Below, in pieces: positions 768-24,903 of a DNA stretch of 24,903 nucleotides. Below the pieces are notes generated by a model, which was not told the origin of the DNA, searched no databases, and saw only the letters and a list, made by a program, of their open reading frames with translations. The DNA is from a virus, in IMG/VR virus record IMGVR_UViG_3300023215_000843, positions 1-24,903 of that record, one strand, 5' to 3'. The stretch's first letter is position 1, and each line of letters begins with the position of its first letter. The position numbers and the translations under genes were made by a program.

Positions 768-801
768 TTTTAATAATTAAATCATATATTTAGAGGATAA
801 A

Positions 802-1578: not shown

Positions 1579-1584
1579 GGAGTT

Positions 1585-1640: not shown

Positions 1641-1663
1641 ACAACGGGAAACAGAGGCAAAAA

Positions 1664-4050: not shown

Positions 4051-4054
4051 TATT

Positions 4055-4665: not shown

Positions 4666-4681
4666 GAAATAGGAGCTGTTA

Positions 4682-5500: not shown

Positions 5501-5514
5501 AAAAAAGGTTACAA

Positions 5515-5838
5515 ATGCAACCAATAAAAAATGATAGGGGTATGAACAAAACTGAGGCAAAATATGCTGATATTTTGGAGCTACAATATAAGGATGGCAA
5601 TATAATTTCTTATCATTTTGAGGAAGTAAAATTTAAGATCGGTGAACGATGTTGGTATACCCCTGACTTTCTAGTTGTATGCCAAGATCATTTTGAGGTT
5701 CATGAAGTTAAGGGATTTATGCGAGATGATGCACGTGTGAAAATCAAAGCCGCACGTTACCGCTACCCATTTTTTAATTGGTTTCTATGCTATTTCAAGA
5801 ATAAAAAAATAGGTTGGGATATTCAAGAGGTAAAATAA
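5515..5838 (+). CDS. DUF1064-like PD-(D/E)XK endonuclease
   Basis: A 107-residue protein with a small PD-(D/E)XK nuclease pattern: E14 in MNKTEAKYADIL, D51 in YTPDFLV, and E64/K66 in EVHEVKGF. This matches the DUF1064 family, often described as phage Holliday-junction-resolvase or VRR-like nucleases. The 70-87 part (RDDARVKIKAARYRYPFF) is the usual helix after the active site. The first ATG has an AAAGG site eight bases upstream. An internal ATG at 5542 lies too close to GGGG to be preferred, although homology itself begins near residue 10. Likely role: processing of recombination or replication junctions made by the genes upstream; this is inferred from family and context. Confidence 0.72.
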   Translation: MQPIKNDRGMNKTEAKYADILELQYKDGNIISYHFEEVKFKIGERCWYTPDFLVVCQDHFEVHEVKGFMRDDARVKIKAARYRYPFFNWFLCYFKNKKIGWDIQEVK

Positions 5839-6093
5839 ATGTCAAAAGTTATTTGGATTAGGATGGCAAAAATGAGTTACATAAACCGTTTAGAACTTAG
5901 GAATAGCAAGGATAAAAATATTGTAACACGTGAGGATATAAATAGTGCGATGGAAGCTTTTAAATTAAAAGGTGGGGTTATCAAAAAGTATGAGGATGGT
6001 AATGCACATGATCTAATTTGTGTTGGTGGAATGCTACCAGAACAACAAGGTGATACTCCAATATCTCCTAAGCCTCTACAAGGTTCCTATTAG
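5839..6093 (+). CDS. Small hypothetical protein, last gene of the plus-strand operon
   Basis: An 84-residue protein I do not recognise. The ATG follows directly on the stop of the nuclease gene (TAAATG), with AAGAGG upstream inside that gene, so it is translated in the same operon. It is basic in the first half (RLELRNSKDKN), ends in a proline/glycine-rich tail (PISPKPLQGSY), and has no membrane segment. Its TAG stop overlaps the TAA stop of the convergent membrane-protein gene on the other strand (6090-6093). Confidence 0.55.
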   Translation: MSKVIWIRMAKMSYINRLELRNSKDKNIVTREDINSAMEAFKLKGGVIKKYEDGNAHDLICVGGMLPEQQGDTPISPKPLQGSY

Positions 6094-6398
6094 TTATTAA
6101 CTGCACGTAACAGATCGCCACGAATCGTATTTTCAAGACGTACGATAGACGTATTTATTTCATGCAAACCCGTCGAAACTTCTTTCATGATCCCTAAAAG
6201 TTCATCCTGTTGTTTATCAAAAATAACTGTAGTAGCTTTATTTTGTTCAATGATTAAATTCCTCCAATCTTTTCGCTCTATTCCATGAGTTTTATGCAAA
6301 TAGAAAATAAAACCTATTTGGAATAGCATAACTACACCTACAATTCCAAACTCCAAAATAGTCATTGCCCCCGTAGTTACTAACTCATCATTTATCAT
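6090..6398 (-). CDS. Small single-pass membrane protein (holin or i-spanin candidate)
   Basis: A 102-residue protein with a short N-terminus, one hydrophobic span (about 13-34, TILEFGIVGVVMLFQIGFIF) and then a charged, helical, coiled-coil-like tail ending in VRLENTIRGDLLRAV. This layout fits a small phage holin or an inner-membrane spanin. It lies at the end of the late gene set, where lysis genes are common, but no endolysin is next to it, so the lysis role is only inferred. The first ATG has a poor Shine-Dalgarno sequence. It sits directly after an AATAGG...CCTATT stem. A second ATG (residue 12) follows GGGGG closely. Choice between long and short starts, as in dual-start holins, cannot be settled here. 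Confidence 0.6.
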   Translation of the reverse strand: MINDELVTTGAMTILEFGIVGVVMLFQIGFIFYLHKTHGIERKDWRNLIIEQNKATTVIFDKQQDELLGIMKEVSTGLHEINTSIVRLENTIRGDLLRAVNN

Positions 6399-6451
6399 AA
6401 TAGGATCACTTTAGCCTATTCCTTTGGAGTTTATTTATATTCTGAAAGTTC

Positions 6452-6543
6452 TGTTAAAGGAGCTAAAAACGCTTCTTTAATAGCGGTAACCCCCAGTTTT
6501 TAATGTTTTGTCCATGTTAAAGAAGCTAAAAACGTTCCTTCGT
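6452..6543. repeat. Two imperfect direct repeats of about 29 bp, 63 bp apart
   Basis: Copy 1 begins at 6452 and copy 2 at 6515. They share TGTTAAAG, one mismatch, AGCTAAAAACG, then a variable half. Copy 1 folds as TTAAAGGAGC (6454-6463) with GCTTCTTTAA (6471-6480), ten pairs with one G-U on one strand. Copy 2 lies inside a bulged hairpin CATGT...ACATG (6513-6549). Confidence 0.6.
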
Positions 6544-6547
6544 TACA

Positions 6548-6572
6548 TGGAAATGTTTCCACCTTTTTATTT
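6548..6572 (+). terminator. Possible weak terminator for the plus-strand operon
   Basis: TGGAA (6548-6552) pairs with TTCCA (6557-6561) over an ATGT loop. It is followed two bases later by TTTTTATTT on the plus strand. The stem is short and A/T-rich, so termination would be weak. If used, plus-strand transcripts would run antisense through the small membrane-protein gene before stopping here. Confidence 0.25.
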
Positions 6573-6642
6573 AAAATAAATGATAAAAAAAAATAAAAAT
6601 ATAATCGAATAAATAAAAATCAACGTTTTCAGATTTGAAATA

Positions 6643-9492: not shown

Positions 9493-9494
9493 AA

Positions 9495-11150
9495 TTATTG
9501 TTGTTCTAATAACCGTTCACTAGTCACTTCTGTCTTGTACATATTTCTATTTTTTCGCATTGCTTCTAATCCATTAATCCCAAAATACTGGCCATACATA
9601 GCCCATACCTTAACTTCAGCAATTTTTACACCACCCCTTTTCAAGTACTGTCTTAATCTAGGTTTACTTACATATCTGGCAGCATTTATATTTAATGGTT
9701 GAGCTTCTGCTTCTATAACGGTACGAGACTTATTTATGTTTTTCCTAAATTCCTTAAGTTTTGTATCAAACACACCAAGCAAAGCTTCATCAAAACTTGG
9801 TTTCTCTAGAACATCTTTAATAAACTTTATATCTTCTATTGGAGTAAATGCTGCACCTAAATTAGCAAGAGGCTCACTTTTATATATATTAAGTAACTCT
9901 GAAACCTGTGCTTTCATTTGTGTTCTAGATTTATGATATGGTATTATCACATTCATTCCATGTTCTTTCATTAATGCTGTAAGCCTGTTAAGTGGGGCTT
10001 GAGCCTTATGCCATGTGCTTAGAGAAGCACCAGCTTCTTGTGCTCTCTTTGGTGAATTAAACATCCCAACACCATCAACCATCAAAGTTACAACATTTTG
10101 CTCTAGTTTCTGTTCCTTAGTACTAATCACTAATTTTTGTATCTCTAAACCTCTTACTCGTGCTTCATCCTCTTGCTTTCTTTTACGTTCATCAATAATT
10201 TTTTTAGCACTAAATTTAATTATATTCATTTTAACTGTTAGCTGTTGCATTACCAACTGTTTTTCAGCTTGGATAAAAGCTTTTTGCTTAAGATAATTAT
10301 CTGTTTTATTAGCTGCTTCCATCATCTTAAGTCTTGCTACCTGAATCACTTTATCTTGATGTTTTAATAAAGAAGAAATCTCAGATAATTTTGTAGCCTT
10401 CTTACCCTTTAATAAATTAAGTTTACTTTTATATTCATTCTCAATTGCATCAGTCAGTAAATTGGATATAACTACTCCTGTATTCTGATTACCAGGAGTC
10501 ATTGTATCACCTACTGAACCCATAATTATTGCAATTGCTGCCATTATACCCTGTAACGGCTTTTCAGATGTAAACAGCTTATCCCTTTCAGGAGGGTTTT
10601 CATCCAGCCTTTTTAAATCAGCATAATGAGGGTCAATCTCTGTTTGAAATTGATCCTTCATCTGTTGAACAGTCCCTGCCTCAGTCCATATTGAGGTTGG
10701 AATCATGTAAGTATTTTCTTTATCAGTAAATTTACGATAGGCAGTTTTGTCATATGCCTCTTTCAATTCACTTACAGATTCAAAAACACTTTCCTGTAAT
10801 TCAGATGTGAACACCTCTAAACCAGCTTTTTTAACTGGGTCTGTCTGAATATTATATTTTGCGTCGAGTTCATCAGAGGATTTTTCAATCTGGTTCATTT
10901 TTAGAAAGTATTCATTACTCATTTTCTTTATAGGGTCTACTACCTTTGTAGAGTCTACTCTCCCTACAGGCCTTTGTTCTGGTATAGGAGGTAGAGGTGT
11001 AGTTTCTTTAATAACCCCTTTAACAGTTTCATCCTGTTGTGAAGTAATCTCATCAACCCAATCAAATAATTCCGGGTCATTTTCTGCCATTGCATCAGTT
11101 TTCTGATAGGGCATTCTGGAAAAAAATGCTGTTGTACGGGGATTTGGCAT
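9495..11150 (-). CDS. Internal virion / ejection-type structural protein (551 aa)
   Basis: An unrecognised 551-residue protein that fits the middle member of a phage ejection-protein set. The N-terminal 190 residues are charged and partly proline-rich. A hydrophobic Ala/Ile/Met segment (about 199-212, LQGIMAAIAIIMGS) is followed by GDTMTPGNQNTGVVISNLL, then a very long lysine-rich helical stretch (about 235-350) likely to form a coiled coil. The part at about 385-485 (EHGMNVIIP, then NLGAAFTPIEDIKFIKDVL) resembles a helical module I associate with podovirus internal proteins. The ATG has AAAGGT eight bases upstream. The stop nearly touches the next gene, implying coupled translation. A role in genome delivery is inferred from order and composition. 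Confidence 0.55.
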   Translation of the reverse strand: MPNPRTTAFFSRMPYQKTDAMAENDPELFDWVDEITSQQDETVKGVIKETTPLPPIPEQRPVGRVDSTKVVDPIKKMSNEYFLKMNQIEKSSDELDAKYNIQTDPVKKAGLEVFTSELQESVFESVSELKEAYDKTAYRKFTDKENTYMIPTSIWTEAGTVQQMKDQFQTEIDPHYADLKRLDENPPERDKLFTSEKPLQGIMAAIAIIMGSVGDTMTPGNQNTGVVISNLLTDAIENEYKSKLNLLKGKKATKLSEISSLLKHQDKVIQVARLKMMEAANKTDNYLKQKAFIQAEKQLVMQQLTVKMNIIKFSAKKIIDERKRKQEDEARVRGLEIQKLVISTKEQKLEQNVVTLMVDGVGMFNSPKRAQEAGASLSTWHKAQAPLNRLTALMKEHGMNVIIPYHKSRTQMKAQVSELLNIYKSEPLANLGAAFTPIEDIKFIKDVLEKPSFDEALLGVFDTKLKEFRKNINKSRTVIEAEAQPLNINAARYVSKPRLRQYLKRGGVKIAEVKVWAMYGQYFGINGLEAMRKNRNMYKTEVTSERLLEQQ

Positions 11151-11179
11151 ATGTACCTTTAATAATTAAATCTAATTTA

Positions 11180-13021
11180 TCAAACTGGAGTAGGAGTTGT
11201 TGGTGGAATCCCCATTTGGTACTTAACATAAGCTGATGCAACTAAGCCTGCACCCTGTAAAACACCACCTAATAAACTATTTTGGTTATTCCTATTACTT
11301 TGTGAGCGGTCCCATTTATGCTGTAATCTTGCCATTTTTTCTTGGAATATACGTGCCTGTTCTACATTCATTAATTCAGCCGATATTCCTAGCTTCTTCA
11401 AATTTAGGTTAACTTTATTTAATGCTTGTTGTTCAGACATACCTTGTAATTGAAGTTGTGTTGATTGGTTTTGGATATGCGTTCTTAAGTTATTCTGAGA
11501 ATCTTGGATATTACGTTGTTGTGCTAGTTCAGAAAGTAAATTAGCTCTATTAGCAGATATATCTGCCTGTTGTCTCAGCCTGTTAGCCTCAGTAACATGC
11601 CCTTGTAGCTCTGATTCTTGTGCAAGTTCAGCAAGTCGAGTAGACCGTTGTTGTTCTAATCTTTGTTGCTGTAAATCTGCCTCTAATTGAAACCTTGATT
11701 TGTCCCTTGAAGCTTCAAAGTTAAGAACGCCCTGTTGTAAATTCCGTTGGGATGCAACCTCCATCCTTTTTATTCCAGCCTGTTGCTGTAATTCCGCTTG
11801 TCTTATCTTCCGGCGTTCCTTGAATTCTACAATGGTTAGACCTGCTTGTGTAGCTAGTCTTGCATCTTCAACATTTTTTTGCTGTTCATACTGTAAAAGA
11901 GTTAAACCTAAAGTTTGAGCCATCTCAGCGTCTTTTATTTTTTGTGTACGTTCAAACTCTTTACCAGCTAATATTGATTGCTGTGTAAGCCCTGCCTGAC
12001 TTGTTGCTAAACCAGCCTCAACAGTTCTTGCTGAACCAAGAGATTCACCAAGTAATTTCTTTCTATCGAAAGCTTGTTGTGCACCTAACATTGCAGATTG
12101 TTCTGCTGCTTGGCTACCGATCTTACCTACTTGTGAAGCTAATTGACGTTGTGCTATTGAAACATCTGCACCTCTACCTTTAGATAATGCTACTTGTTGA
12201 GCAATTGCTGCATCTCTATCTCTAGCAAGCCCTATTTGCTCTGCGCTCTGTGCTCCTGGTTCTTGTAAGCTAGCAAGGTATGCAAGTTGTTTCGCCTTAA
12301 TAGATGTTGCAGAGGAGTCTTCTGTAATAGTAGCAGCATCACCAGCAGTAACATTCCCTACTGTTATTTTCTGTTCATCAGTAGGAGCTACTATAGAAGT
12401 TACTGCATCAGCCGTATAACTAGGGAGAGCAGTATCTGCTCCACCTATTGTTGGGGCTACATAATCACCAGTCTTGATTGGGTTACCATCGGCATCAACA
12501 CCCATTTGGTCAGAGATAGTACCAGCAGCAATATTTGTTGCAGCAACATCTGTCGATATTCCGGTTTCCTCATCAACACTAACAACACTATCAATACTTT
12601 GAGTTCCTATATAACCAACAGCCGTATCCTCAGTACCAATAGCACCAACTGTTATATCAGCCAGTGCTTTACCATCCGCATCAACTGGGACTACACCAGT
12701 TGACGATACAGGTTGAATATCATCATCTTCTCCGGTCCCATAACTAATATCAAATTGACCTGTATCTATTGCTGTTGGATCATAATTTATAGTATCTAAA
12801 TGTGCGCCAACATCCTCTCTATCTCTTGGTTTATTCCTATATTGCGCTCTCTCCCACTTCTCGAATTTTGCAAGAGCTTGAGGTCTTGTCAGACCAGCCT
12901 TTACTTGATCCCCTACCCAAACTTCTAAAGCTTCATTATTTATTTCCTCTTGAGTTGGTCCTGCTGGTTCTGGTGCTGCTATAACAGTTGGAGCATCCTT
13001 TTTTCTTAAAGCGTACGACAT
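11180..13021 (-). CDS. Ejection-type structural protein with 22-residue helical repeats (613 aa)
   Basis: A 613-residue protein of mixed build. Residues 1-100 are charged. About 105-240 are low-complexity Val/Thr/Ala/Gly/Asp, likely beta or disordered, with DADG appearing twice. About 240-570 are Gln/Ala/Arg-rich helix. Inside the helix lie tandem 22-residue units at 362-383, 384-405 and 406-427 (pattern AxLxxQAGLTxxExxxR), fading into weaker units up to about 515. The C-terminus has a short Gly/Ala hydrophobic end (SLLGGVLQGAGLVASAY, 582-598), common in phage ejection proteins. A good AAAGGT site precedes the ATG. It is followed by two more large helical proteins, so I read it as the first ejection-set member; no enzyme motif is seen. 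Confidence 0.58.
   Translation of the reverse strand: MSYALRKKDAPTVIAAPEPAGPTQEEINNEALEVWVGDQVKAGLTRPQALAKFEKWERAQYRNKPRDREDVGAHLDTINYDPTAIDTGQFDISYGTGEDDDIQPVSSTGVVPVDADGKALADITVGAIGTEDTAVGYIGTQSIDSVVSVDEETGISTDVAATNIAAGTISDQMGVDADGNPIKTGDYVAPTIGGADTALPSYTADAVTSIVAPTDEQKITVGNVTAGDAATITEDSSATSIKAKQLAYLASLQEPGAQSAEQIGLARDRDAAIAQQVALSKGRGADVSIAQRQLASQVGKIGSQAAEQSAMLGAQQAFDRKKLLGESLGSARTVEAGLATSQAGLTQQSILAGKEFERTQKIKDAEMAQTLGLTLLQYEQQKNVEDARLATQAGLTIVEFKERRKIRQAELQQQAGIKRMEVASQRNLQQGVLNFEASRDKSRFQLEADLQQQRLEQQRSTRLAELAQESELQGHVTEANRLRQQADISANRANLLSELAQQRNIQDSQNNLRTHIQNQSTQLQLQGMSEQQALNKVNLNLKKLGISAELMNVEQARIFQEKMARLQHKWDRSQSNRNNQNSLLGGVLQGAGLVASAYVKYQMGIPPTTPTPV
11609..11938 (-). repeat. 66-bp period coding repeats (22-residue helical units)
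   Basis: This stretch codes for residues 362-471 of the 613-residue protein. Three units align well (start residues I362, V384, I406), with AGLT-like motifs at 371, 393 and 415. Two more (428, 450) keep the leading hydrophobic residue and length. The DNA copies have diverged, so the repeat is best seen at protein level. Confidence 0.65.
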
Positions 13022-13029
13022 AATTACCT

Positions 13030-15984
13030 TTATATAGTAGAACTTGTTCCTAATTTACGTAAGCCTGTTTTTAACCCTACTATAGATTGCATAACACTTA
13101 TACTATAGGACTGGTCTGTAAATGTAGGCATACTATCAAAAAATCTTATTCTGAAAGACTGACATTTTTGTTTGCCATGCTCTATTCTGAACTGATACAC
13201 ACCATCACTATCTCCACCATAAATACCATTACCATAAGGTGTTCCATCACCAAATGAGTTTAGGTTTTTAGCTGTAGCAAAATCAAAAGTGTGTTCTTCA
13301 TTGAAGAATTCTTCATAATCATAAGCAATTTGACATACTAGAATGTGACTTGTTTTATAATCACCTAATACGGCTGTTTTATAAACCCTTTGAAACCCCT
13401 GTAGTTGGTCTAAATTAATCCATGCTGTTGTCAGCTTCATAACAATTGATCTGGAATTATCTAAATATTTATCAGCAGTTTCTTGATAAACCTCACCATC
13501 ATCTCTTAAGTAGACATACGCCCCTTGCCATATAGTAGAGCCATTGCCAGAATGGTTAGTAAAAGTAGACCATTTATCAAAGTAATAGTCATAAACTAGT
13601 GTTATATCATCATCAGTAAGAAACCGAACTTGATTACCATCTTGAACAAGAGTTGCACCTTTTATTGTTTTGCTATTAAAAGACTCAACAGGAGAACCAA
13701 TATAAAAGGTTTGTAAACTCCTATCTAAAAGATAAATTCCTTTAGTTGTCTGAAACATCAACCCCTTTGGTGTTACCACAATAGAGTTTGTGTTATCACA
13801 CCCGACATCTGAGGTAACTAACTGAGGCTTAGAAAAAGTATCTTGTTCACCTGTGTTAGTTGGACCATCACCAGTTAATACATAGATTTTAGACTTCTCA
13901 AAAATGAATAACTTACCATCCATCTCTTGAAATGCTGTAATTCTATCTGCACTTGATATTGTAATCCTTAGAGTCTCATTGAATTCAACGGGTAAACCTT
14001 TTGACCTACCCTTAGAGTAATAAATAGTTTTACTATCCTCTCCTGATACTAAGAACACCCTATTCTTGAATAACCCAATAATGCTACCAGAAGGAGGTGC
14101 AATATTGTCTAATATGCCACCATTCGTATAGAGGAACTGATTATATATTAACGATACATCAGAATTAGTATCAGCTATATCAACAGTATTAACATCAGGG
14201 TCATTATCTATTTCCTTAGTAAAGTAATAAAGAGTCGATTTGCCTGCTTCTGTTCTAAATACTTGAATTTTTACATCTGTCTTTTCTGTAAGTCTCAAAG
14301 TAGGGACCGTCAAAGTTATTTTCTGTATACTAGACTCTGCTCCTAACGTCTTTGTCAAAATCACAGAAGTTGCAGAATAATGTAAATAACCTTTATGATC
14401 AGTCCAAGAATATATTACTTTGTAGTTATAAATCCCATCTGACATAAAACCACCTGAAGTACCTAAAGCTCCTGTAATATTCTCAGGGTAAAGATGGAAT
14501 CCATGTTCTACAATATTCGTCCCATCATACATATTAAGAAAACCACGATATACATGAAGGTTCCCTCCTAACTCTTCAGAATTAATCTCTACTGTATTCA
14601 AATCTAAAGTGACACGGGACAATCCTGTTTTTGTATAGACATTATTATTATCACTTACTAATTCTGTTTTTATTGTGTTGACTGACTCCCAAACACCAGA
14701 CTCTTTTTCTATTACAGAGGGTAATATTTTCTTGGTATTTACTCCACCAGCTTCACCCTGTAAATACTTTGCGCTTAATAGACCTGTCCCTTGCATTGTA
14801 TAGAAAGTACTTTGGAGGTCACTATCATGAACAACGTTCATATAGATAACTGTACCATCTAAAAAAGCCTTAGAAGCTAAGCCTACAGAGTTTTTAACAA
14901 CACTAGCTGAACCAGTAGTAGAATCGGCTATAGTGACCTTGTTGGTCTTTATAAACCTATTATAGGTGTTAGTTGCATTCATCTCATAAAAGAAGTTCAA
15001 ATCACCTGAACTATCAAATACTTGTGTGACTACATTAACAATAGGAGAACTAGTTGAGTCTATAGTCCTTGCTGATAAATCAGTTGTTAAATTACTATTT
15101 AATGAAAATAACCTCAAACCTACAGATGGCTTAAAATAAGAAATATAAAATTTATCATTAGCAGCATTAGCAATAACTTCTAAACATTCCGTAGGAGTAT
15201 CCCCATTTATAGTAACAGCATTTGAAAGTGAGTCTAACGTAGTTGCTATAAGACCTGTTTCTAATAAATATCCTACTTTAATGTCATTACTAGAACTCAT
15301 AGAGTAAGCAAAAACTGATTCATCCCCCCTTTTCACAATACTATAAAGTTTAGAAAAATTAAGGTCTGTAGCTACATTAAAAGATGCCTCAAACAATAGC
15401 GTTGTAAGGTTAAACTTTTGACCTGATAATGTAGAACCATTAGCATAAAGCACAAACATGCTTGACCCAATGTTTATACATCTAGGATTCGTAGCAGTTG
15501 CATGTAATGCAATATCAGAAGCTAGAAAAACATTATTCTTTAGATCAATAACAGTAACCCGTATACCCCCTCTGTCATCTTCCCATGCAAATAATGCAAT
15601 ATTCCTATGTACAGTAACATCAGGAGTAGTTTGCTCTGCATTATTACGAATAATATTTGATAAGGAGGGTAATAGAGACTTGAAAGAACCCCTATCTAAC
15701 CAAGCGTTTCGGTTTGGGGCAAAAGAATAAAATTTATTAGAAGAAGTCAGAAAAAGTTCATCTTCAAAAGAAGTAATACTATCCCCCGAAGTTAAACTAT
15801 CTACAGAATTGATTACATCCTTTGACAATGCCGTATAGCCATTCCTCTTAGTAATAGTGCTTCCTTTATTAAAAACACCATTTTCCAGCTCTGTAAGATT
15901 AGCTGGTAAAACAAGCTTTTCATCAGATTTTGTGTCTATCCCCCCACTAAGACTTATTTGTACCGCTTGTTTCTGTAGTGCCAT
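13030..15984 (-). CDS. Large tail nozzle / stabilisation-type protein (984 aa)
   Basis: Probably the tail nozzle below the adaptor. The start (ISLSGGIDTKSDEKLVLP, then LTELENGVFNKGSTITKRNGY) is the common N-terminal signature of podovirus tail tubular B/gp10-like and related proteins. The rest is rich in beta strands. Repeated propeller-like pieces are visible, such as GLFKNRVFLVSGEDSKTIYY and GKLFIFEKSKIYVLTG, and further on TTKGIYLLDRSLQTFYIG. No enzyme motif is seen. The size fits a beta-propeller nozzle of the P22 gp10 type rather than the smaller T7 gp12, but the exact family is not certain. AAAGGTC precedes the ATG. The start lies 38 bp inside the end of the small coiled-coil gene. Confidence 0.68.
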   Translation of the reverse strand: MALQKQAVQISLSGGIDTKSDEKLVLPANLTELENGVFNKGSTITKRNGYTALSKDVINSVDSLTSGDSITSFEDELFLTSSNKFYSFAPNRNAWLDRGSFKSLLPSLSNIIRNNAEQTTPDVTVHRNIALFAWEDDRGGIRVTVIDLKNNVFLASDIALHATATNPRCINIGSSMFVLYANGSTLSGQKFNLTTLLFEASFNVATDLNFSKLYSIVKRGDESVFAYSMSSSNDIKVGYLLETGLIATTLDSLSNAVTINGDTPTECLEVIANAANDKFYISYFKPSVGLRLFSLNSNLTTDLSARTIDSTSSPIVNVVTQVFDSSGDLNFFYEMNATNTYNRFIKTNKVTIADSTTGSASVVKNSVGLASKAFLDGTVIYMNVVHDSDLQSTFYTMQGTGLLSAKYLQGEAGGVNTKKILPSVIEKESGVWESVNTIKTELVSDNNNVYTKTGLSRVTLDLNTVEINSEELGGNLHVYRGFLNMYDGTNIVEHGFHLYPENITGALGTSGGFMSDGIYNYKVIYSWTDHKGYLHYSATSVILTKTLGAESSIQKITLTVPTLRLTEKTDVKIQVFRTEAGKSTLYYFTKEIDNDPDVNTVDIADTNSDVSLIYNQFLYTNGGILDNIAPPSGSIIGLFKNRVFLVSGEDSKTIYYSKGRSKGLPVEFNETLRITISSADRITAFQEMDGKLFIFEKSKIYVLTGDGPTNTGEQDTFSKPQLVTSDVGCDNTNSIVVTPKGLMFQTTKGIYLLDRSLQTFYIGSPVESFNSKTIKGATLVQDGNQVRFLTDDDITLVYDYYFDKWSTFTNHSGNGSTIWQGAYVYLRDDGEVYQETADKYLDNSRSIVMKLTTAWINLDQLQGFQRVYKTAVLGDYKTSHILVCQIAYDYEEFFNEEHTFDFATAKNLNSFGDGTPYGNGIYGGDSDGVYQFRIEHGKQKCQSFRIRFFDSMPTFTDQSYSISVMQSIVGLKTGLRKLGTSSTI

Positions 15985-16135
15985 TTAAGACCTTTAATTT
16001 TTCAGTAAGCCCTTGTATCTCCCCATCCTTTTCAACTAAGGCTTTATGTAACTCATTAATAATTAAACATTTTTGTTTAATATTCTCAGCAAATATCAAA
16101 TCATGATCTGTATTATAAATTTCATTTATTTGCAT
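15947..16135 (-). CDS. Small coiled-coil protein
   Basis: A 62-residue protein, helical by composition, with a heptad-like run from about 20 to 50 (LHKALVEKDGEIQGLTEKLK). I do not recognise the family. It has a good AAAGGTG site six bases before its ATG, lies eight bases after the preceding gene, and overlaps the start of the nozzle gene by 38 bp, so it is probably expressed with the tail genes. A role in tail assembly is a guess from position. Confidence 0.55.
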   Translation of the reverse strand: MQINEIYNTDHDLIFAENIKQKCLIINELHKALVEKDGEIQGLTEKLKVLNGTTETSGTNKS

Positions 16136-16143
16136 AACACCTT

Positions 16144-16521
16144 TTATAATGGTTTAATTGGTAAAGAACACGAATCTTTGTTTAACACCCCATTTTCATC
16201 CAGCGTGGGGTCCACTGTTGATTTCAAATCTCTTAATTCTTGACGATAATTCTTGTACTTGTCAGGGTTCCTATCTGGTAGCATCTCAAAATCTGTTTCT
16301 AACAATCTTTGATTACAAATTCTTTCCACCAAACTTTTTGCAAGTATTTTCAAATCAGGACAATTTGACATAAATTGAGTGGGAATTGAATCAATTACAT
16401 GTTCTTTTTTCGCCCACCACTCACTTTCTCTTTCTTTTAAAATATAATCATCTGGCTCAACTCTAAATTCTTCGAATTCAGCCTGAATTTCAATAACCGA
16501 AGACATTTTCACAACAAACAT
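16144..16521 (-). CDS. Tail-fibre assembly chaperone-like protein
   Basis: Probably 125 residues. The open frame reaches back to 16650, but the likely start is the ATG at 16521: TTTAAAGGA lies seven bases upstream, and this start avoids a 119-base overlap with the fibre gene. Near the C-terminus, PDKYKNYRQELRDLKSTVDP matches the WxxYRxxLRDL-type motif of phage tail assembly chaperones (Phage_tail_APC and tail-fibre assembly families). The remainder is charged and has no membrane segment once the upstream hydrophobic extension is dropped. It directly follows the fibre gene (10-base gap), which is where such chaperones sit. The function is inferred from motif plus position. Confidence 0.58.
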   Translation of the reverse strand: MFVVKMSSVIEIQAEFEEFRVEPDDYILKERESEWWAKKEHVIDSIPTQFMSNCPDLKILAKSLVERICNQRLLETDFEMLPDRNPDKYKNYRQELRDLKSTVDPTLDENGVLNKDSCSLPIKPL

Positions 16522-16531
16522 ATATTTTCCT

Positions 16532-18922
16532 TTAAAAAATATTCCAATTAAACCCAGAACACGCAATATAAACAATAGGAGCACCCCCCGTGTGATAGGT
16601 TTTATACCACAATCTATTGTCCCATAATGGCACTTCGAATGTTCCCCCAAAATTCCCTACATTAGCTGTAACAGCAGTTTCATGAATCCTAAAATACTCG
16701 TCAAATGCATAAACATTATTTGTGGTCAAATATATTTTTTTAGAATATCCACCATTAAGCTGAAAATATCCTCTCAATTTTGCAAGTTTCCAAGGCAGAT
16801 CAGGTAATATATTAAGTGTCACTAAAGTTCCATCTACCCCAGTGGCAGTCGGTGTATAACTTGCACTAGCAGCCGCTCCAGCAATATCGGTAAAAACAAG
16901 TGGATGTATTACAACATTTCCTTTTTGGTAAAATTTCCTATTAACGCTAGAATCTCGATAAACGGCTCCTACTAATCGAAAAAATAGGGTTCCCGCCGGA
17001 CGATAGAATTTCTCATCTAAATTGTCATTTAATGCGGTTGCTGTTGTTGCGGTTGATCCAACTACTCGAGTAACTGTCAAATTAGAAATTACCCATATAA
17101 AAACCCACCCCGTCCCGACATCAGCATCGTCCATTGAATTAATTTCGCCGGCATAAGTTGCGTTGCATTTAAGAACGAGCCTAGAAGAATTAGGAATTTC
17201 GACAACTACAGCATGACCATCAAGTGAGTGTAAGGTTAAATAATCAGCCCATAACTCTACTTGATGGTCATTATAAGAGCCGTTATATTTCATGACAAAA
17301 CCTTCGTCACGATGAGGTTGAGTGATTACCCCACTCGTTAGTGTCACCTTATTAAAGGTTACGTCTGCATTTGTTGTAACATCCTGGTTTATTACACTTG
17401 CTGATTCAACATCAAGATTGCCACTAAGTGTTAATGAGCGATTTGCATTCCCTGTAATAAGGCTTAACGTGTAATCAGCATTAAGATCATTTACAGGCTT
17501 AATGATAAGAACATTATTTGATCCAGAATCTTTTATTTGTAACCCCGTATTACCAAGGGTTATTTTACCAAACTCTGCTGTCGTTGAGGCAACTGATAAA
17601 TCTTGATCTATAACTGAGCCTGAGCCTTCTATAGAGATAGCTGTATTTGTTCCAGTATCCGTAGTAATAGTTAGAGTTCTATTATCCGTAAGATCAGCCC
17701 CAGGTTTAATAGTAAGATACTTATCTCCAGAAGTCTCTTTTACACGTAGACCAGTATTAGGAAGAGTTAATACATCAAAAGCTGCTGTTGTTGAATTAGC
17801 TGATAAATCTTGATCAATAACTGAGCTAGTACCTTCTATAGAGATAGCTGTATTTGCATTACCAGTAGTAATACTAAGTGTTCTATCTGCTGTAAGAGCA
17901 GACGCAGGTTTAATGATAAGAGCATCTGTTCCACTGCTTTCTTTCACACGTAGACCAGTATTACCTAGAGTAACCCCTGTAAACGTTGGAGAAGCATCAT
18001 CAGTAACATCTTGGTTTATGAGAGAATTAGCCTCTACACCTAAATCGCCTGCAACCGTCAAAGTTTTATTAACATTGGCATCTATGGTTAATATACTACC
18101 GCCAGGAGCTTTAATTTCGAAGTTCGTCCGATCTGACGCAACCCTCATATAACCAGTAATTGATCCACCTTCTTCTATATCAATTCCTGATAATGCTCCA
18201 GAATCAGCACCTCCACCATCATTTATTATAATATTATTGTCTTTAACAGTAAGATTAGTGGTGTCAACCGTAGTCGTTGTTCCATTTACTGTTAAATTGC
18301 CACTAAGGATAATATTACCTGCAAAGGTCTGAGGATCAGAGCCTATATGTGCAAGAGTTGCAGTAGTTTCAGGTAGGGTAAGTGTCTTTGGATTAGTACC
18401 TGTATATTGAAGCTTTACAGATTGAGTCGATACACCATCTGTATAAATATAAATTGATTCGGTAGCTAATAAGGCAGTTTCATTTGTATTTTGTAGGAAT
18501 GTAAAAATCTTATTAGTATCATCCCAAGTAACACTAGCATTAGTTTCACCCATACTACCGATACCACCAATAGAAGTCGCACTAATTGCGTTATCATCTG
18601 TCAAACGTACTTCTTCGCCTTGATCATTTACATAATATAAATCCCCTGATTTTTGGTACAAGGCCATTAAATCTGTTTCAGAATCTAATGTAGGGTTTGT
18701 AGAATTAAGCCTTATTGTTCTAATGCCTATAGCATCTTTATTGTTAAAATTTAATTCTGTAGATATATTTATGCCAGCAGGAGTGACTTGAATCCCTTTT
18801 GCAGAACTATGGTCATGATTATCAATTGTATCAGCGTTAGTGTTAAGGTTTGTGGCCCACGTTGGACCTGCCGTTACATTAACGTCTGGTTTAGTCAATC
18901 CCATATTTGCAGTTGTTGCCAT
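16532..18922 (-). CDS. Tail fibre with tandem repeats (796 aa)
   Basis: Likely host-receptor-binding tail fibre. The N-terminus (LTKPDVNVTAGPTWATNLN at 9-27, then IDNHDHSSAKG) matches a virion-attachment module seen in many podovirus and marine phage fibres. A beta-rich shaft follows: NLTVNGTTTTVDTTNLTVKD (209-228) is a shaft motif shared with other phage fibres. Then come three units of about 68-72 residues (roughly 303-511), each holding an NTGLRVKESSG-like start, an I(I)KP strand and an NxxLTLSIT strand. The C-terminal 260 residues (about 535-796) are unlike the repeats and probably form the receptor-binding head. GAGGT sits before the ATG. The stop TAA is part of the next gene's ribosome site. 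Confidence 0.83.
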   Translation of the reverse strand: MATTANMGLTKPDVNVTAGPTWATNLNTNADTIDNHDHSSAKGIQVTPAGINISTELNFNNKDAIGIRTIRLNSTNPTLDSETDLMALYQKSGDLYYVNDQGEEVRLTDDNAISATSIGGIGSMGETNASVTWDDTNKIFTFLQNTNETALLATESIYIYTDGVSTQSVKLQYTGTNPKTLTLPETTATLAHIGSDPQTFAGNIILSGNLTVNGTTTTVDTTNLTVKDNNIIINDGGGADSGALSGIDIEEGGSITGYMRVASDRTNFEIKAPGGSILTIDANVNKTLTVAGDLGVEANSLINQDVTDDASPTFTGVTLGNTGLRVKESSGTDALIIKPASALTADRTLSITTGNANTAISIEGTSSVIDQDLSANSTTAAFDVLTLPNTGLRVKETSGDKYLTIKPGADLTDNRTLTITTDTGTNTAISIEGSGSVIDQDLSVASTTAEFGKITLGNTGLQIKDSGSNNVLIIKPVNDLNADYTLSLITGNANRSLTLSGNLDVESASVINQDVTTNADVTFNKVTLTSGVITQPHRDEGFVMKYNGSYNDHQVELWADYLTLHSLDGHAVVVEIPNSSRLVLKCNATYAGEINSMDDADVGTGWVFIWVISNLTVTRVVGSTATTATALNDNLDEKFYRPAGTLFFRLVGAVYRDSSVNRKFYQKGNVVIHPLVFTDIAGAAASASYTPTATGVDGTLVTLNILPDLPWKLAKLRGYFQLNGGYSKKIYLTTNNVYAFDEYFRIHETAVTANVGNFGGTFEVPLWDNRLWYKTYHTGGAPIVYIACSGFNWNIF
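17387..18016 (-). repeat. Coding tandem repeats in the tail-fibre shaft
   Basis: Three units of about 68, 69 and 72 codons. The TGLRV/TGLQI motif recurs at residues 322, 390 and 459 of the fibre, and VIDQDLS/VINQDVT ends each unit. DNA identity between units is clear in places (for example the block coding NTGLRVKE), so recombination between copies is possible. Confidence 0.75.
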
Positions 18923-18931
18923 TTTTTTACC

Positions 18932-19255
18932 TCAAAATATCCATACGTCGATTGTTGCAATACCAGAACTATTGATAATTATGATTCTATCTTTATTAAT
19001 ATTTGTTGAATTAATAAATGTAGTTATTCCTGAATCAGATTTTGTTATTAACATACCTGTATATTTCCGATCTAATCCATGACCAATTCCGTTATCACCT
19101 GAAACTAGAGACACATCCTTTTTATGTATACCATCTAAAAAAGGTGCTCTATTTAGTATATTAACTACATTTATTATTTCATCTTGAACCAGACCTAATT
19201 CCCTAGATTTAACAGGGTCTGAAGCCACAATATTTGAAAACTTTAGAAGACTCAT
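18932..19255 (-). CDS. Small virion protein, fibre- or tail-associated
   Basis: A 107-residue protein with a helical N-terminal half and a C-terminal beta part: DVSLVSGDNGIGHGLDRKYTG, then a strand-turn-strand ending IATIDVWIF. This resembles a small phage structural protein often found beside fibre or adaptor genes (pattern nHgLgRkptGw... tvdlWvF). Its ATG overlaps the adaptor stop by one base (TAATG), so translation is probably coupled. The exact place in the particle is unknown. Confidence 0.55.
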   Translation of the reverse strand: MSLLKFSNIVASDPVKSRELGLVQDEIINVVNILNRAPFLDGIHKKDVSLVSGDNGIGHGLDRKYTGMLITKSDSGITTFINSTNINKDRIIIINSSGIATIDVWIF

Positions 19256-20103
19256 TATATTACATATAGATTATCATAGGCAGAGACATCTGTAACTGTT
19301 GTAGGCTCTCCCGCATCTCTTATATTTGATGCACCATTAATCCTTTTAACTAAAGAGGACTTATGACCTACTAATGGACCTATATCAGATTCTTCTTTTA
19401 CTAAGCATCTTATAGCTGCATCCACAATTACAAATTCATCCCAACCAGAATATCCATCCATCATAAGGTTAAGCTTACCAAAGTTAGTTACAGCTCCTAG
19501 TGCTGAAGAATCTAAATCTGTAACTACTGTTGTAGCTGTTACCGATACAATTTTCTGTTCTACATTATAAGTTGCAGGTAAAAAATCCTCACCCAATAAG
19601 TAATCACCTGCTACATAGTTTTTTGGGTCTGTCGTATATGTTGTATTAGAACCCGTTGCAACAATGGTAGCAGATGTGAATTCTAATAATCTAGGGTTTG
19701 GAATATACCAAATCCTTATAGTGTCAGAACTTGTCGGTGTAGGAGAAAAGAATATCTTCTCACCCTGTATCCGATACTTTAAGCTGGATGCTGACCTAGA
19801 ACGCTCAGAAAAATTATATCTATGAATAGGCATATAATCATTACCATTCTTATAATCGACACCTCTAGCTTTATAGAAATCACTAGGGAGATCATAAGAT
19901 TCTGTATCAGAAACTAAAGTAATATCACTATTTTTCAGAAAATAATCTTCTTCATAATTCTGAATAATAATATCATACAATTCGTTCCAAGCATGATTAA
20001 CATAATCATCAACTTCGGCATCAGAGACAAATTGGGAATTCTCCATATCTGCCCTTCTACGTACATTAGTTCTTATACTGTTTAATCCAACCCGTTTAGG
20101 CAT
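19255..20103 (-). CDS. Head-tail adaptor / tail tubular A-type protein
   Basis: A 282-residue adaptor-like protein that probably joins portal and nozzle. The start (RTNVRRRADMENSQFVSDAE, then VDDYVNHAWNELYDIIIQNY) is the typical helical N-terminus of podovirus adaptors, with ITLVSDTESYDLPSDFYKAR (61-80) and FFSPTPTSSDTIRIWYIPNP as family-type strands. An extra beta-like insert covers roughly 140-205 (TSATIVATGSNTTY, later VSVTATTVVTDLDSS). The end returns to helices (VIVDAAIRCLVKEESD). A TTAAGGA site lies eight bases before the ATG. Its place between capsid and tail genes agrees. Confidence 0.72.
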   Translation of the reverse strand: MPKRVGLNSIRTNVRRRADMENSQFVSDAEVDDYVNHAWNELYDIIIQNYEEDYFLKNSDITLVSDTESYDLPSDFYKARGVDYKNGNDYMPIHRYNFSERSRSASSLKYRIQGEKIFFSPTPTSSDTIRIWYIPNPRLLEFTSATIVATGSNTTYTTDPKNYVAGDYLLGEDFLPATYNVEQKIVSVTATTVVTDLDSSALGAVTNFGKLNLMMDGYSGWDEFVIVDAAIRCLVKEESDIGPLVGHKSSLVKRINGASNIRDAGEPTTVTDVSAYDNLYVI

Positions 20104-20104
20104 A

Positions 20105-20308
20105 TTATTTCCTTAAAGATTTCAACGCCCTGATTATCTTTTTTATATCTTTATTCTCAATCGCATCAATCAATTCATTAGCCATGAATTCTTCTTCTGC
20201 ACTATGAGCATCACAAGAACCCTCTTCATGATCATCAGAATCATCATCAGATTTTTTCATCATTGGTCCAAGAATAATTCCTGCGATCTTTGCATTATTA
20301 GAGAGCAT
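20105..20308 (-). CDS. Small acidic protein next to the capsid gene
   Basis: A 67-residue protein: a short hydrophobic start (AKIAGIILGPM), an Asp/Glu/Ser-rich middle (KKSDDDSDDHEEG) and a helical basic end (ELIDAIENKDIKKIIRALKS). Small proteins of this build, with an acidic centre and an AxELxxAxxxxDxxxxxxAL-like tail, occur near capsid or portal genes in several podoviruses, but their function is not known to me. The ribosome site is weak. It lies one base before the adaptor gene start. Confidence 0.55.
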   Translation of the reverse strand: MLSNNAKIAGIILGPMMKKSDDDSDDHEEGSCDAHSAEEEFMANELIDAIENKDIKKIIRALKSLRK

Positions 20309-20331
20309 ATCTAACCATTACTTTAGAGAAT

Positions 20332-20355
20332 GTAGCCCACCCGAAAGCAGGCTAC
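20332..20355 (-). terminator. Hairpin just after the major capsid gene
   Basis: On the minus strand, GTAGCC (20355-20350) pairs with GGCTAC (20337-20332). Three further pairs, two of them G-U, close a six-base loop. No T-tract follows, so it is probably a partial terminator, RNA-processing or mRNA-stabilising element rather than a full stop. Its place right after the capsid gene would let capsid mRNA exceed the tail genes. Confidence 0.4.
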
Positions 20356-20363
20356 TGAAAATA

Positions 20364-21590
20364 TTAAGGTAGAGTGATATTACAATTCCAACCAGGAGCA
20401 GTGCAACCTAGTTGAGCATAATATCCTGCACGAATCTCAACACCATCATCTGATGATTGACGTAACATTTCAAGTCCGTCATGCCTCAAAATTCTAGGAG
20501 TTGCACCAATAGAATAAAGCTTCCAAGTGTCCATCTGGACTAAGAAAGCTCGTGATACTGGACAATCCTTGTCGGGTATGATCTTAATTATTCCTGTAGG
20601 CGCATACATCTCAACACCTTGGAAAGAAAATTTGCCAACCTGTGCAACATCTCTTTGTACCTGAGAATTCAAAGTCGTAATTAAACTTCCAAAGTCAGTA
20701 AAAGAGACAAAGCAATAATCAGGTTTTCCACCTTCTCTACCAAGTCGTACTGAAGCATTAATGATAGCTAAGTCTACACTTGCAAGCGAACCACCATTAT
20801 ATCGTTGGCCTCCTAGTCTAGTAGCATCAGAACTTCTATCTAAACCAAAGAAAGAATCACCAGAAGCAGGAGCAGTAGTTGGTAACCAACCAGCCAACCC
20901 AGTAACTTTATTACCTTTATCACCTTCCATAAAGACATAATCATTATTTGCAATTGCACTAATTCCAGCAGAAAGGTTTCCTGTCATAGTCACCTGCATA
21001 GTAGTCGCATTTCGATCAATCGCAGAAACTTGCAATGTTCCTGATCGAACAGCCGTACCAGTGGTTAAATTATGAACTGAAACTTTCTGATTCTTCTCAA
21101 AGTTTACAACATCATTATCATCAACAAGATCAAGAGTTGCTACACCAAAAGCACCGCTAGCATTGTTTACTTTACCAATACTTCCTGAACCATCTCCAAA
21201 AAGAGATTTACTCAAAGAGTCCGATAATGCTCTAAGGGTTCCATTGATTTCACTTGTTGAAGCAGAAAGAAAAGCATACTCATCACCTCTTGAGGCTTCA
21301 AGTACTTCGCCACCAATAGTGACAACGCCATAATCTTTCTTACGGGTAAGGAGAAATTCTGCTAAAGAAGAAGCAGAAGCATTTGACTGAGCAGTTGAAA
21401 AAGTAGAACTTCGACCTTGCCCATGTCCATATATTACAGGGACAGGAAGGTTCTTACCTTTGAACTTCTCATTTTTTGGAACCATCGCCAAAAAGGGATG
21501 ATTAGGATATGTTAAATCTTTGACTGCATCAGCCGTATAATACTGCTTTAATGCATCATCAAAAGTTGTCATTGTTGTTGCAGTTGCCAT
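20364..21590 (-). CDS. Major capsid protein, HK97-like
   Basis: Forms the head shell. It has 408 residues and is placed straight after the scaffold, with the strongest ribosome site of the block (AGGAG, 8 bases before ATG). Typical features of the podovirus capsid family are YPNHPFLAMVPKNEKFKGKN (28-47), the STFSTAQSNASAS stretch, ALSDSLSKSLFGDGSG (121-136), and the P-domain/A-domain end GKFSFQGVEMYAPTGIIKII with WKLYSIGATPRI. A beta-rich insert lies at about 150-230. No protease is visible, and the N-terminus shows no long delta domain, which agrees with a separate scaffold gene. Confidence 0.85.
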   Translation of the reverse strand: MATATTMTTFDDALKQYYTADAVKDLTYPNHPFLAMVPKNEKFKGKNLPVPVIYGHGQGRSSTFSTAQSNASASSLAEFLLTRKKDYGVVTIGGEVLEASRGDEYAFLSASTSEINGTLRALSDSLSKSLFGDGSGSIGKVNNASGAFGVATLDLVDDNDVVNFEKNQKVSVHNLTTGTAVRSGTLQVSAIDRNATTMQVTMTGNLSAGISAIANNDYVFMEGDKGNKVTGLAGWLPTTAPASGDSFFGLDRSSDATRLGGQRYNGGSLASVDLAIINASVRLGREGGKPDYCFVSFTDFGSLITTLNSQVQRDVAQVGKFSFQGVEMYAPTGIIKIIPDKDCPVSRAFLVQMDTWKLYSIGATPRILRHDGLEMLRQSSDDGVEIRAGYYAQLGCTAPGWNCNITLP

Positions 21591-21603
21591 TTTAGACTCC
21601 TAG

Positions 21604-22551
21604 TTAAGCTGTTCTTTGACCTTTCAAAACTTTAACAGCTAATTCTAGTCGATCTTCATCAGTTAATAACTCATCTCGGCTAGGCTGTTGTAAGCTCCTA
21701 CTTTGTTTATTTGTTATAGTCTTACTATTTTTCTTAGCGATAGGAGTCAGCGAAGGCGTATCTTCATTTTGTAAACTAGTGCGACCAGTAAATTTTTTAG
21801 CCTTTGAAAATATATCTAACTGATTTTCAAAGTATTTTTCAACATTTTCGAGTACATCTTCCATAGGTAGCATTTTAGCTTCACCTGTACTCTGTAACAT
21901 ACGATTAGCATATTGTGATTGGATTGACAAATAAATATCCTTGGCAGCATCCCAATTGATTGAGCACAATTCAAAGTCTTCGTCATTTTCTTTAACATGT
22001 ACACCAACTTCAGCCATATATGTTTCAACTTCTTGTTGCTGTGTTTTTATTGTACTTTCTAATTTAGATTCTTCCTTCTCTTTTAATAATTGATCAACCT
22101 GTAGTTTTAATTCCTTTAAGATTTCATTTTCAGGTGTACTACTATCAGGTTCATCACTATCTATTATTTTATTAGTTACTTCTTGGTACGATGTACCAAT
22201 ATCCTTTAAGAACTTTAAGGGATCATCTTGTGCAAGTTTCTGCATATCTTCATATGACTGAACATTCTTGCTAGTTTCTTTTAAATCTTTCTCTCTGCTC
22301 CTAACCTCTAATTCCCTACGATTTAATTCCTCAAAAGCTGCATGTAATTTGTCAGTGTTATCAGTATCCTCTTTTTCTGGTACTTCCTCTTTAGCTTCGG
22401 CAGCAGGAATCGCCACATCTTCCACATCATCTGTTTTAACATCAACATCATTATCTGTTCCTTCATTAGCCACATTATCATTAATAAATTCATCAATCTG
22501 GCTAAATTCCTCTGTCGATTCTGCTACTTCCTCTTGAACTTCTTCGGTCAT
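21604..22551 (-). CDS. Scaffold protein
   Basis: A 315-residue, strongly acidic, helical protein between portal and capsid genes: the standard place and composition of a phage scaffold. The first 65 residues are almost all Glu/Asp/Val/Ala. A coiled-coil stretch runs about 68-180 (ELNRRELEVRSREKDLKE, then LKLQVDQLLKEKEESKLE). The C-terminal 65 residues are basic and Ser/Thr-rich, as in scaffolds that bind capsid through a positively charged tail. AAGAGG precedes the ATG, and the start overlaps the portal stop. No protease motif is seen. Confidence 0.8.
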   Translation of the reverse strand: MTEEVQEEVAESTEEFSQIDEFINDNVANEGTDNDVDVKTDDVEDVAIPAAEAKEEVPEKEDTDNTDKLHAAFEELNRRELEVRSREKDLKETSKNVQSYEDMQKLAQDDPLKFLKDIGTSYQEVTNKIIDSDEPDSSTPENEILKELKLQVDQLLKEKEESKLESTIKTQQQEVETYMAEVGVHVKENDEDFELCSINWDAAKDIYLSIQSQYANRMLQSTGEAKMLPMEDVLENVEKYFENQLDIFSKAKKFTGRTSLQNEDTPSLTPIAKKNSKTITNKQSRSLQQPSRDELLTDEDRLELAVKVLKGQRTA

Positions 22552-24422
22552 TATACCTCTTGTTGTTGTTGTGGATTAATCGGCCCCTGCCCTTGTGGTT
22601 GGCCCTCTGGTTGTTGAACTTGTTGGCCCTGTACTAATTGTGCTTGAGCTTGCTGCGCTTGAGCCTGTTGTGCTTGAGCTTTACGTTGCAACTCTATTTG
22701 CTTTTCAATAACCTGCTCTTTTGCTCTATCCTGTAAAAATAATACTTGATTTAACCAAGTCCTAAGTATCTCGAGTCTTTCCTCTGAAACACCATTAATT
22801 CTGGCATTCAAAATAGCCCTAGTAAACTTATCTTGAGCAAGAGCTAAATCCATCTGAGGATAAGGTTCAGGTGGTTGTTTACCATCAAGTATATCTGAGA
22901 CAGCTTGATCAATATAATCCTCATTAACTGTTGCTAATGTTTGAAATGAATCCAAATCTGGAACATTAAGTAATTTGATTGTTTGTTCTCTTGAGGTTAT
23001 AAGTCCAGCTTGCACCAATTCTTGAATCATTTGTAATCGACCTGTAGGTGTAGACGGCAAAAGAGATACAGGAAAAACTCTCATCAAATATTCGTTTTCA
23101 TCCAGACTTACCTCCTTCCATTTAAGTTTCCTTAAACTTTTTTTCTGCATCCCTAATACCGTGAGTGAGTCTCCTTCATCATCAGATTTCTTAACTAATC
23201 TAATAATCCACTCTGCCGCTTTCATAAAAGCATTTTCATAATTCTGGGCGGTAGTCATAAAACGTTCTGTTTCAACATCTTGTAGTGTTCTAAGCGCAAC
23301 ACCTGCTGATATACCTTTTGGCTTCGTAGATGTAGCGGACAGTTGAGATATTCCCGATATTTCATACGCATCTCTTTTCATCCTATCTAAGTGTGCAAAA
23401 ACTTCACTAGGGACAACATTAGGGGTATAGATTTGTGGCGGTCTTCCTGTATAATTAATTATTGTTCCCTCAACATTCCTAATATGGGAAGGAGAAACGT
23501 TTGATCCTGCTTCAATCATTACAAAAGGAACTGCAAGTAAATGTATGGATTGAGCAATCCTATGAAGAGTTTGATTAATTTCAACCTGAATCCCAAATAA
23601 TTGCTCTGTTAATGATTGTCCGTACCATGATAAATTAGTTTTGTTCCATCTGAGAAAGATAAAAGGGAAATCATCAAATAACCAAGGTTCATCGAATAAG
23701 CATCGTCCCTCAATAGAGATGATGTGCCTTCCATCATTTGCAGTTGAACTACTGGGCAAATGCCATGCTTCAATGCATGTGATATTATCGTCGTTGGTGT
23801 CATTTGAACCCCCTAAATTTACTGATTCCTCAGAAACTGGAATATCACCGTATTCTTGCTCTAAAATGTACCTAGAAATGTCTCTAACTTGGTATAAATG
23901 TGTTGCTTTACCAAAACGCCCTTCCTGTTCATCTACAAATATTTCCATCGGAAAGACTTTTTCACACTTTATGTCACCATCCTCTTCGAATATTTTTAAG
24001 ACTCCAATATCAAAAATTGTTGAATCTAAAAAGACATCAGGCATCTTTGTATAAATATCCATCCTTAGAAACATACCCTCAACAAAATCGCCTAATAATT
24101 CAGCACGTTTTGCTAACTCTTGGTTATGGCCTTGAGTCAAAAACATCGGTCTTGGCTTATTTTTAGAAATTTTCGAAGTAATTGTATCGCATACAGACTG
24201 AACGATATTAATTTTAGAACGCTCACCCTTACGACTATAAAGGTTATCGGTAACCTCTATTCCTCTATCACTGATAGAATAGTTCCTATTACCGTATAGC
24301 CTTAAAAAAGAAAGGTTCTCAGCAATACGTTTAGACTGCTTCTTCCTTAACATTTCTACATAAGGAAAAAGAGAGTTGTGAACACTATTTTCTTCTTCTA
24401 GCCACCAAAAGTTCTGTTTCAT
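22551..24422 (-). CDS. Portal protein
   Basis: Twelve-fold ring at the head vertex through which DNA is packaged and ejected. It has 623 residues. INIVQSVCDTITSKISKNKP (71-90), LLGDFVEGMF and VFLDSTIFDIGVLKIFEEDG (130-149), ERVFP-type KVFPMEIFVDEQEG (155-168) and DAYEISGISQLSATSTKPKG (351-370) followed by SAGVALRTLQD are typical of podovirus-type portals. The last 60 residues are Gln/Ala-rich (AQAQQAQAQQ) and probably disordered. The start ATG overlaps the upstream stop (TGATG). A second copy of its first 31 codons lies in the inverted arm at 24810-24903. Confidence 0.87.
   Translation of the reverse strand: MKQNFWWLEEENSVHNSLFPYVEMLRKKQSKRIAENLSFLRLYGNRNYSISDRGIEVTDNLYSRKGERSKINIVQSVCDTITSKISKNKPRPMFLTQGHNQELAKRAELLGDFVEGMFLRMDIYTKMPDVFLDSTIFDIGVLKIFEEDGDIKCEKVFPMEIFVDEQEGRFGKATHLYQVRDISRYILEQEYGDIPVSEESVNLGGSNDTNDDNITCIEAWHLPSSSTANDGRHIISIEGRCLFDEPWLFDDFPFIFLRWNKTNLSWYGQSLTEQLFGIQVEINQTLHRIAQSIHLLAVPFVMIEAGSNVSPSHIRNVEGTIINYTGRPPQIYTPNVVPSEVFAHLDRMKRDAYEISGISQLSATSTKPKGISAGVALRTLQDVETERFMTTAQNYENAFMKAAEWIIRLVKKSDDEGDSLTVLGMQKKSLRKLKWKEVSLDENEYLMRVFPVSLLPSTPTGRLQMIQELVQAGLITSREQTIKLLNVPDLDSFQTLATVNEDYIDQAVSDILDGKQPPEPYPQMDLALAQDKFTRAILNARINGVSEERLEILRTWLNQVLFLQDRAKEQVIEKQIELQRKAQAQQAQAQQAQAQLVQGQQVQQPEGQPQGQGPINPQQQQEV
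22641..22685 (-). repeat. 15-bp tandem repeat in the portal C-terminus
   Basis: Three copies of a TGCTTGAGCTTGCTG-like unit (22641, 22656, 22671), coding AQAQQ pentads of the Gln-rich tail. The copies differ by one to a few bases. The tail length could vary by slippage. Confidence 0.6.
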
Positions 24423-24456
24423 CAGACTGCACTTCTAAAGATAATATCGTCATTGA
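24329..24456 (+). repeat. Left arm of a 128-bp perfect inverted repeat
   Basis: Native copy. It covers the end of the Xre-like ORF and the first 31 codons of the portal gene on the minus strand. It is an exact reverse complement of 24776-24903 by direct comparison. The central loop between the arms is 319 bp. Confidence 0.97.
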
Positions 24457-24775
24457 TTTCTTCATGCTCATTAATATTTGAGCCAATAGACAACGGTTTA
24501 GGTTCATATACTATAGATATATTATCTATTTGTATACTCTGACATCCATTTTCCTTACCTATCTCAGCAAGGGTTCTAACTTGGTTAACTATACTAGTAG
24601 TTAGTATACTCTTTAATTCTGTATCTTCCAACTGACTTTCTGTATTGTCAAAACTGTTTAGTTGCCCAACCTTACTTTCTCCTTCTCCAAACAAAATCCA
24701 TTGAGAACTATATCCATATCTTAGCTCTATACTGTTGGCTAGTAACTTTGATACGTTCCCCTTATCTTTAAGAAT
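24422..24775 (-). CDS. Xre-like (Cro/cI-type) ORF, 5'-truncated at the fold-back junction
   Basis: Open frame directly before the portal gene, overlapping it by one base. A TTG at 24694 can serve as a formal start, but it has no Shine-Dalgarno sequence, and codons upstream read on sensibly to 24775: NVSKLLANSIEL followed by RYGYSSQWILFGEGES. The YGxxxxWxLxGEGE run is the usual end of the helix-turn-helix domain in Xre/Cro-cI-type regulators. This frame meets a stop at 24776-24778, right inside the inverted arm, so the real N-terminus is missing. The C-terminal 80 residues (for example SIQIDNISIVYEPKPLSIG) have no family I recognise. A late-gene regulator or packaging accessory is possible, but only a guess. 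Confidence 0.5.
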   Translation of the reverse strand: MLKDKGNVSKLLANSIELRYGYSSQWILFGEGESKVGQLNSFDNTESQLEDTELKSILTTSIVNQVRTLAEIGKENGCQSIQIDNISIVYEPKPLSIGSNINEHEEINDDIIFRSAV

Positions 24776-24903
24776 TCAATGACGATATTATCTTTAGAAG
24801 TGCAGTCTGATGAAACAGAACTTTTGGTGGCTAGAAGAAGAAAATAGTGTTCACAACTCTCTTTTTCCTTATGTAGAAATGTTAAGGAAGAAGCAGTCTA
24901 AAC
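24776..24903 (-). repeat. Right arm of the 128-bp inverted repeat, ending at the window edge
   Basis: Exact reverse complement of 24329-24456, carried to the last base of the window. Just left of it, AAGAA (24770-24774) also matches the partner, with one mismatch at 24775, so a short microhomology lies at the junction. It contains a plus-strand copy of the portal start. Confidence 0.97.
24810..24903 (+). pseudogene. Inverted partial copy of the portal gene start
   Basis: Plus-strand ATG at 24810 followed by codons identical to portal residues 1-31, cut by the window edge. It exists only because of the inverted arm and is probably not a real second gene. Confidence 0.8.

Follow-up and report, generated by a model that had tools for sequence, protein, structure and literature searches.

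The right end of IMGVR_UViG_3300023215_000843 folds back on itself, and the question is whether this inverted repeat belongs to the phage or arose on the way from sample to record. The window analyzed here is that complete linear IMG/VR virus record, 24,903 bp, so that the inverted arm and the contig share their last base. The fold-back is real in the record but almost certainly artefactual in origin and no biological feature; its relevance is one of data hygiene, not biology.

Geometry of the fold-back

A first-pass annotation had described an exact 128-bp fold-back at the right end, with a 319-bp loop and an arm running to the final base. Recomputation confirms each element. Positions 24776-24903 match 24329-24456 in reverse complement at 128 of 128 bases, the longest exact suffix arm, and 319 bp separate the two exact arms. 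If the single mismatch between 24775 and 24457 is allowed, AAGAA at 24770-24774 extends the arms to 134 bp; both this motif and the mismatch had been reported correctly. The fold-back is by far the strongest inverted repeat of the window, and the runner-up, 38 nt at 71%, is so much weaker that chance is excluded. No exact repeat of at least 10 bp links the left contig end to any other part of the contig, and direct repeats are absent from the right end. The features are as follows.

24329..24456, plus strand: native arm, spanning the initial 94 bp of the portal gene (minus strand) and the final bases of the regulator-like ORF upstream of it; single copy, in native order, in the relative (locus L003)
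24457..24775, plus strand: native loop, 319 bp, holding the C-terminal portion of the minus-strand regulator-like ORF; colinear with L003
24770..24777, plus strand: joint; AAGAATTC versus AAGAAATC (reverse complement of 24455-24462), 7 of 8 bases in common; exact 2-base overlap at 24776-24777
24778..24903, minus strand: non-native, probably chimeric tail that repeats the portal start and the junction upstream of it in inverted form; the 99.8%-identical relative has different sequence here
24422..24775, minus strand: remnant of the truncated regulator-like ORF; residues 39-155 of 155 retained, 38 N-terminal residues gone, stop at the joint

The portal gene (22551-24422, minus strand) matches PHROG head-tail adaptor/portal families (1.2e-17 and 2.5e-10), and its product scores just under the family cut-offs for Pfam Head-tail_con and P22_portal. 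The window also encodes an adaptor protein that matches Pfam SU10_adaptor and a major capsid protein that resembles SU10_MCP with a score below the cut-off. Judged from these matches, the structural module looks podovirus-like. Upstream of the portal gene lies the C-terminal part of a second minus-strand ORF; a TGA (minus strand, 24776-24778) interrupts it at the joint, as expected from the earlier remark that the interrupted ORF stops there. This remnant should not be taken as a short gene. Elsewhere in the window, the early gene region includes a PAPS-reductase-domain protein (4682-5500; Pfam PF01507, 1.4e-07). A 796-aa minus-strand ORF (16532-18922) contains internal near-repeats (17482-17767 versus 17689-17971, ~74% identical DNA), as in modular tail-fibre proteins.

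A near-identical relative across the joint

The sequence expected to the right of 24775 had been proposed as a target for a search of related genomes. One contig was found, IMGVR_UViG_3300028612_000468 (locus L003), a 19,916-bp IMG/VR record that codes for the entire portal protein, the best-matching segment being 100% identical. The two records are colinear over window positions 9118-24777. Window positions 9118-12600 match the first 3,483 bases of the relative at 100%, and a base-by-base comparison of 12554-24777 gives 23 mismatches in 12,224 bp (99.8% identity). Divergence starts at 24778, from where the relative runs on for 4,256 bp in the native direction; the arm occurs in it once, and no inverted copy is present. 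Because the relative is colinear up to 24777, lacks the inverted copy, and continues natively past the joint, the order of the final 126 bases (24778-24903) is not native.

The gene content beyond the joint in the relative agrees with this result. The interrupted ORF is intact there, encoding 155 aa (L003:4145-4612) with a stop that overlaps the portal ATG, and the complete product matches PHROG transcriptional regulator/repressor families (E values of 3.5e-07 and 3.8e-06). Beyond it lie an endolysin (phrog_465, 1.2e-30), TerL (phrog_2, 4.6e-37) and TerS (phrog_51, 4.8e-30; Pfam Terminase_2). The packaging genes absent from the window are thus found just past the joint. The stretch directly past the joint, L003:1-4612, reads TerS, a GNAT-like ORF, TerL, endolysin and the regulator-like ORF, a set of genes for packaging and lysis that the window lacks. 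The portal and TerL proteins have only distant protein matches (~21-27% identity). No similar phage DNA was found among GenBank phages, and a search of GTDB genomes with TerL returned no host or prophage.

The earlier distrust of gene content to the right of 24775 was correct; by the relative, the boundary is strictly 24777, and the terminal 126 bp of the record should be disregarded. The joint is covered by a single relative, since probing IMG/VR with a 28-mer from the loop retrieves only IMGVR_UViG_3300028612_000468. The case shows that, for a suspected fold-back, a single near-identical contig from a different sample can come close to settling the matter without recourse to raw reads. Window positions 9118-24777 are backed by this independent assembly, a support that is confined to that interval and does not extend to 1-9117. 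The 23 mismatches are clustered rather than even (for example, at 14328-14346, 16333-16412 and 18228-18256), a pattern that suggests local recombination or mixed variants.

Origin of the inverted tail

Comparison with the relative also locates the switch. The native sequence reads ...CTTTAAGAATTC/TATTTAACC, the window ...CTTTAAGAATTC/AATGACG, and the inverted source ...CATGAAGAAATC/AATGACG. As the loop side is still native to 24777 with the relative as reference, the switch lies within the common TC at 24776-24777, inside the 8-nt near-match of AAGAATTC and AAGAAATC; this refines the placement given in the first-pass annotation. Among random inverted pairs from the same phage with a spacing of 0.1-1 kb, 0.06% match at 7 or more of 8 bases, so the microhomology is unlikely to be accidental. 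Ligation at a GAATTC (EcoRI) site at the joint was considered and rejected, the other partner being AAGAAATC, which has no such site.

The tail at 24778-24903 is most likely a fold-back chimera from amplification, library preparation or assembly. Among chimeras formed during multiple-displacement amplification (MDA), 85% are inverted and closer segments are favoured; more than 70% are primed at 2-21 nt of complementarity, and 93.5% for inverted segments less than 10 kb apart (Lasken and Stockwell 2007, PMC1855051). The fold-back shares with them its inverted polarity, segments well under 10 kb apart (the arms are separated by 319 bp) and short junction complementarity, here an exact TC inside a 7-of-8 match. 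It differs in being known from a consensus contig rather than from reads. With its microhomology, inverted polarity and short distance between the arms, the tail is consistent with the 3'-end relocation described for MDA. Ordinary library preparation also yields inverted chimeric reads (PMC10908179). In the PDSM model of these reads, single strands pair in vitro and inverted chimeras form without whole-genome amplification, which would apply equally here; that model invokes pre-existing inverted repeats or palindromes in human DNA, whereas the pre-existing complementarity here is 8 nt with one mismatch. Fold-back reads are known from long-read data as well (PMC12870357). Because library preparation and long-read data also yield inverted chimeras, the contig does not reveal which laboratory step was responsible. 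The first-pass annotation had favoured an MDA chimera or a mis-resolved assembly end. Its diagnosis of an artefact holds, given a relative in native order with no inverted copy, and MDA as the cause is compatible with the data but goes no further than that.

The following sequence of events would account for the tail. During in vitro handling of the DNA, by whole-genome amplification or library preparation, a 3' end within the regulator-like gene, terminating in ...AAGAATTC at 24777, would anneal through the imperfect 8-nt microhomology to a strand ~0.3 kb upstream. Extension in the inverted direction would then copy the end of the regulator-like ORF and the portal start. An assembler could follow such chimeric reads up to the point where they rejoin the native path or give out, and the contig would end there. 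The true genome past 24777 would comprise the rest of the regulator-like ORF, then endolysin, TerL and TerS. Direct observations are the native continuation in a near-identical phage, which lacks an inverted copy, the microhomology, and the fact that the arm finishes where the contig does. The relocation of a 3' end is our inference, and the same event in the opposite polarity is equally possible; the reason for the contig stop is likewise deduced.

We consider it very probable that the right contig end derives from a chimeric molecule, and we are highly confident that it reflects either such a chimera or an assembly error. The identity of the arm with its source (128 of 128 bases), its inverted polarity and the distance of less than 1 kb support the former. 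Two points count against it, namely that a single relative covers the joint and that the arm length is off: a graph-merge stop in metaSPAdes predicts exactly k = 127, and with the observed 128 the usual k gives no clean account of why the contig stops. The same number bears on a pure assembly error, in which two ends would have been joined through the near-match AAGAATTC/AAGAAATC with no chimeric molecule involved. In a fragmented de Bruijn graph, contigs normally end in sequence of length maxK (COBRA, PMC10914622), and an exact repeat of near-k length finishing at the contig end is what is seen here. However, metaSPAdes with k up to 127 should give 127, and the arm measures 128 bp, one base off if maxK was 127; maxK may also have had another value, such as 141. 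The exact overlap of 2 bases at the joint is, moreover, far too short for a k-mer join, so that the join almost needs reads that carry the joint. An error of assembly with no such reads is accordingly unlikely, though it deserves some weight.

Explanations that place the inverted copy in the phage fare worse. A real structural variant, either a phage strain or a defective snap-back molecule with an inverted duplication of the portal start region, could draw on the 0.2% difference between the strain of the window and that of the relative and on a polarity that is also compatible with snap-back during replication in vivo. Yet the regulator-like ORF is broken at the joint, the portal is separated from the terminase, the arms show zero divergence, and the inverted arm, together with the contig, breaks off 94 bp into the portal gene. 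The 99.8%-identical relative has the normal order, and the joint occurs in no other IMG/VR contig, the loop probe finding only the native relative. We regard such a variant as very unlikely, and it is extremely doubtful that the sample holds real snap-back (inverted-duplication) phage molecules that arose, as defective-interfering genomes do, while the phage replicated. A true terminal inverted repeat or a hairpin (covalently closed) genome end, already ranked by the first-pass annotation below an artefact, is hardly credible. The position of the inverted arm at the record end would suit it, but phi29-like terminal repeats have arms at both genome ends, whereas here the partner lies inside the contig at a distance of 319 bp, and the left end has no repeat. 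A hairpin telomere of the N15 type is a perfect palindrome centred on the terminus and loopless at the turn; here a unique 319-bp coding loop lies between the arms. The continuation of the relative for 4.26 kb past the joint argues against both forms, and a genuine terminal repeat of 23 bp in another IMG/VR contig, described below, does have its arms at both ends.

Fold-backs at other IMG/VR contig ends

Three scans with arbitrary 14-mers provided 360 random IMG/VR loci for a survey of contig ends; 58 of the first 120 were whole contigs, and many others included one true end. An exact fold-back of at least 30 bp, anchored at the last base or seeded no more than 80 bases from the end, was present at either end in 0 of 360 loci. 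Fold-backs are therefore no usual property of virus contig ends. The idea of a common fold-back class at IMG/VR contig ends was dropped on this count, and there is hence no length distribution to report.

The nearest case, at a true left end (L048:1-82), is an inverted repeat with 27-bp arms and a 28-bp loop; it could represent a hairpin or a similar fold-back on a smaller scale. The genuine terminal repeat comes from a 12,059-bp contig (L232) with exact 23-bp inverted repeats, one at each contig end. Read by eye, its ORFs resemble a protein-primed-type DNA polymerase and a packaging ATPase, and the contig is probably a complete phi29-like genome. A 4,120-bp record (L146) has a 123-bp direct terminal repeat, which, to judge by its length, may be a k-mer overlap left by the assembler and not a biological repeat.
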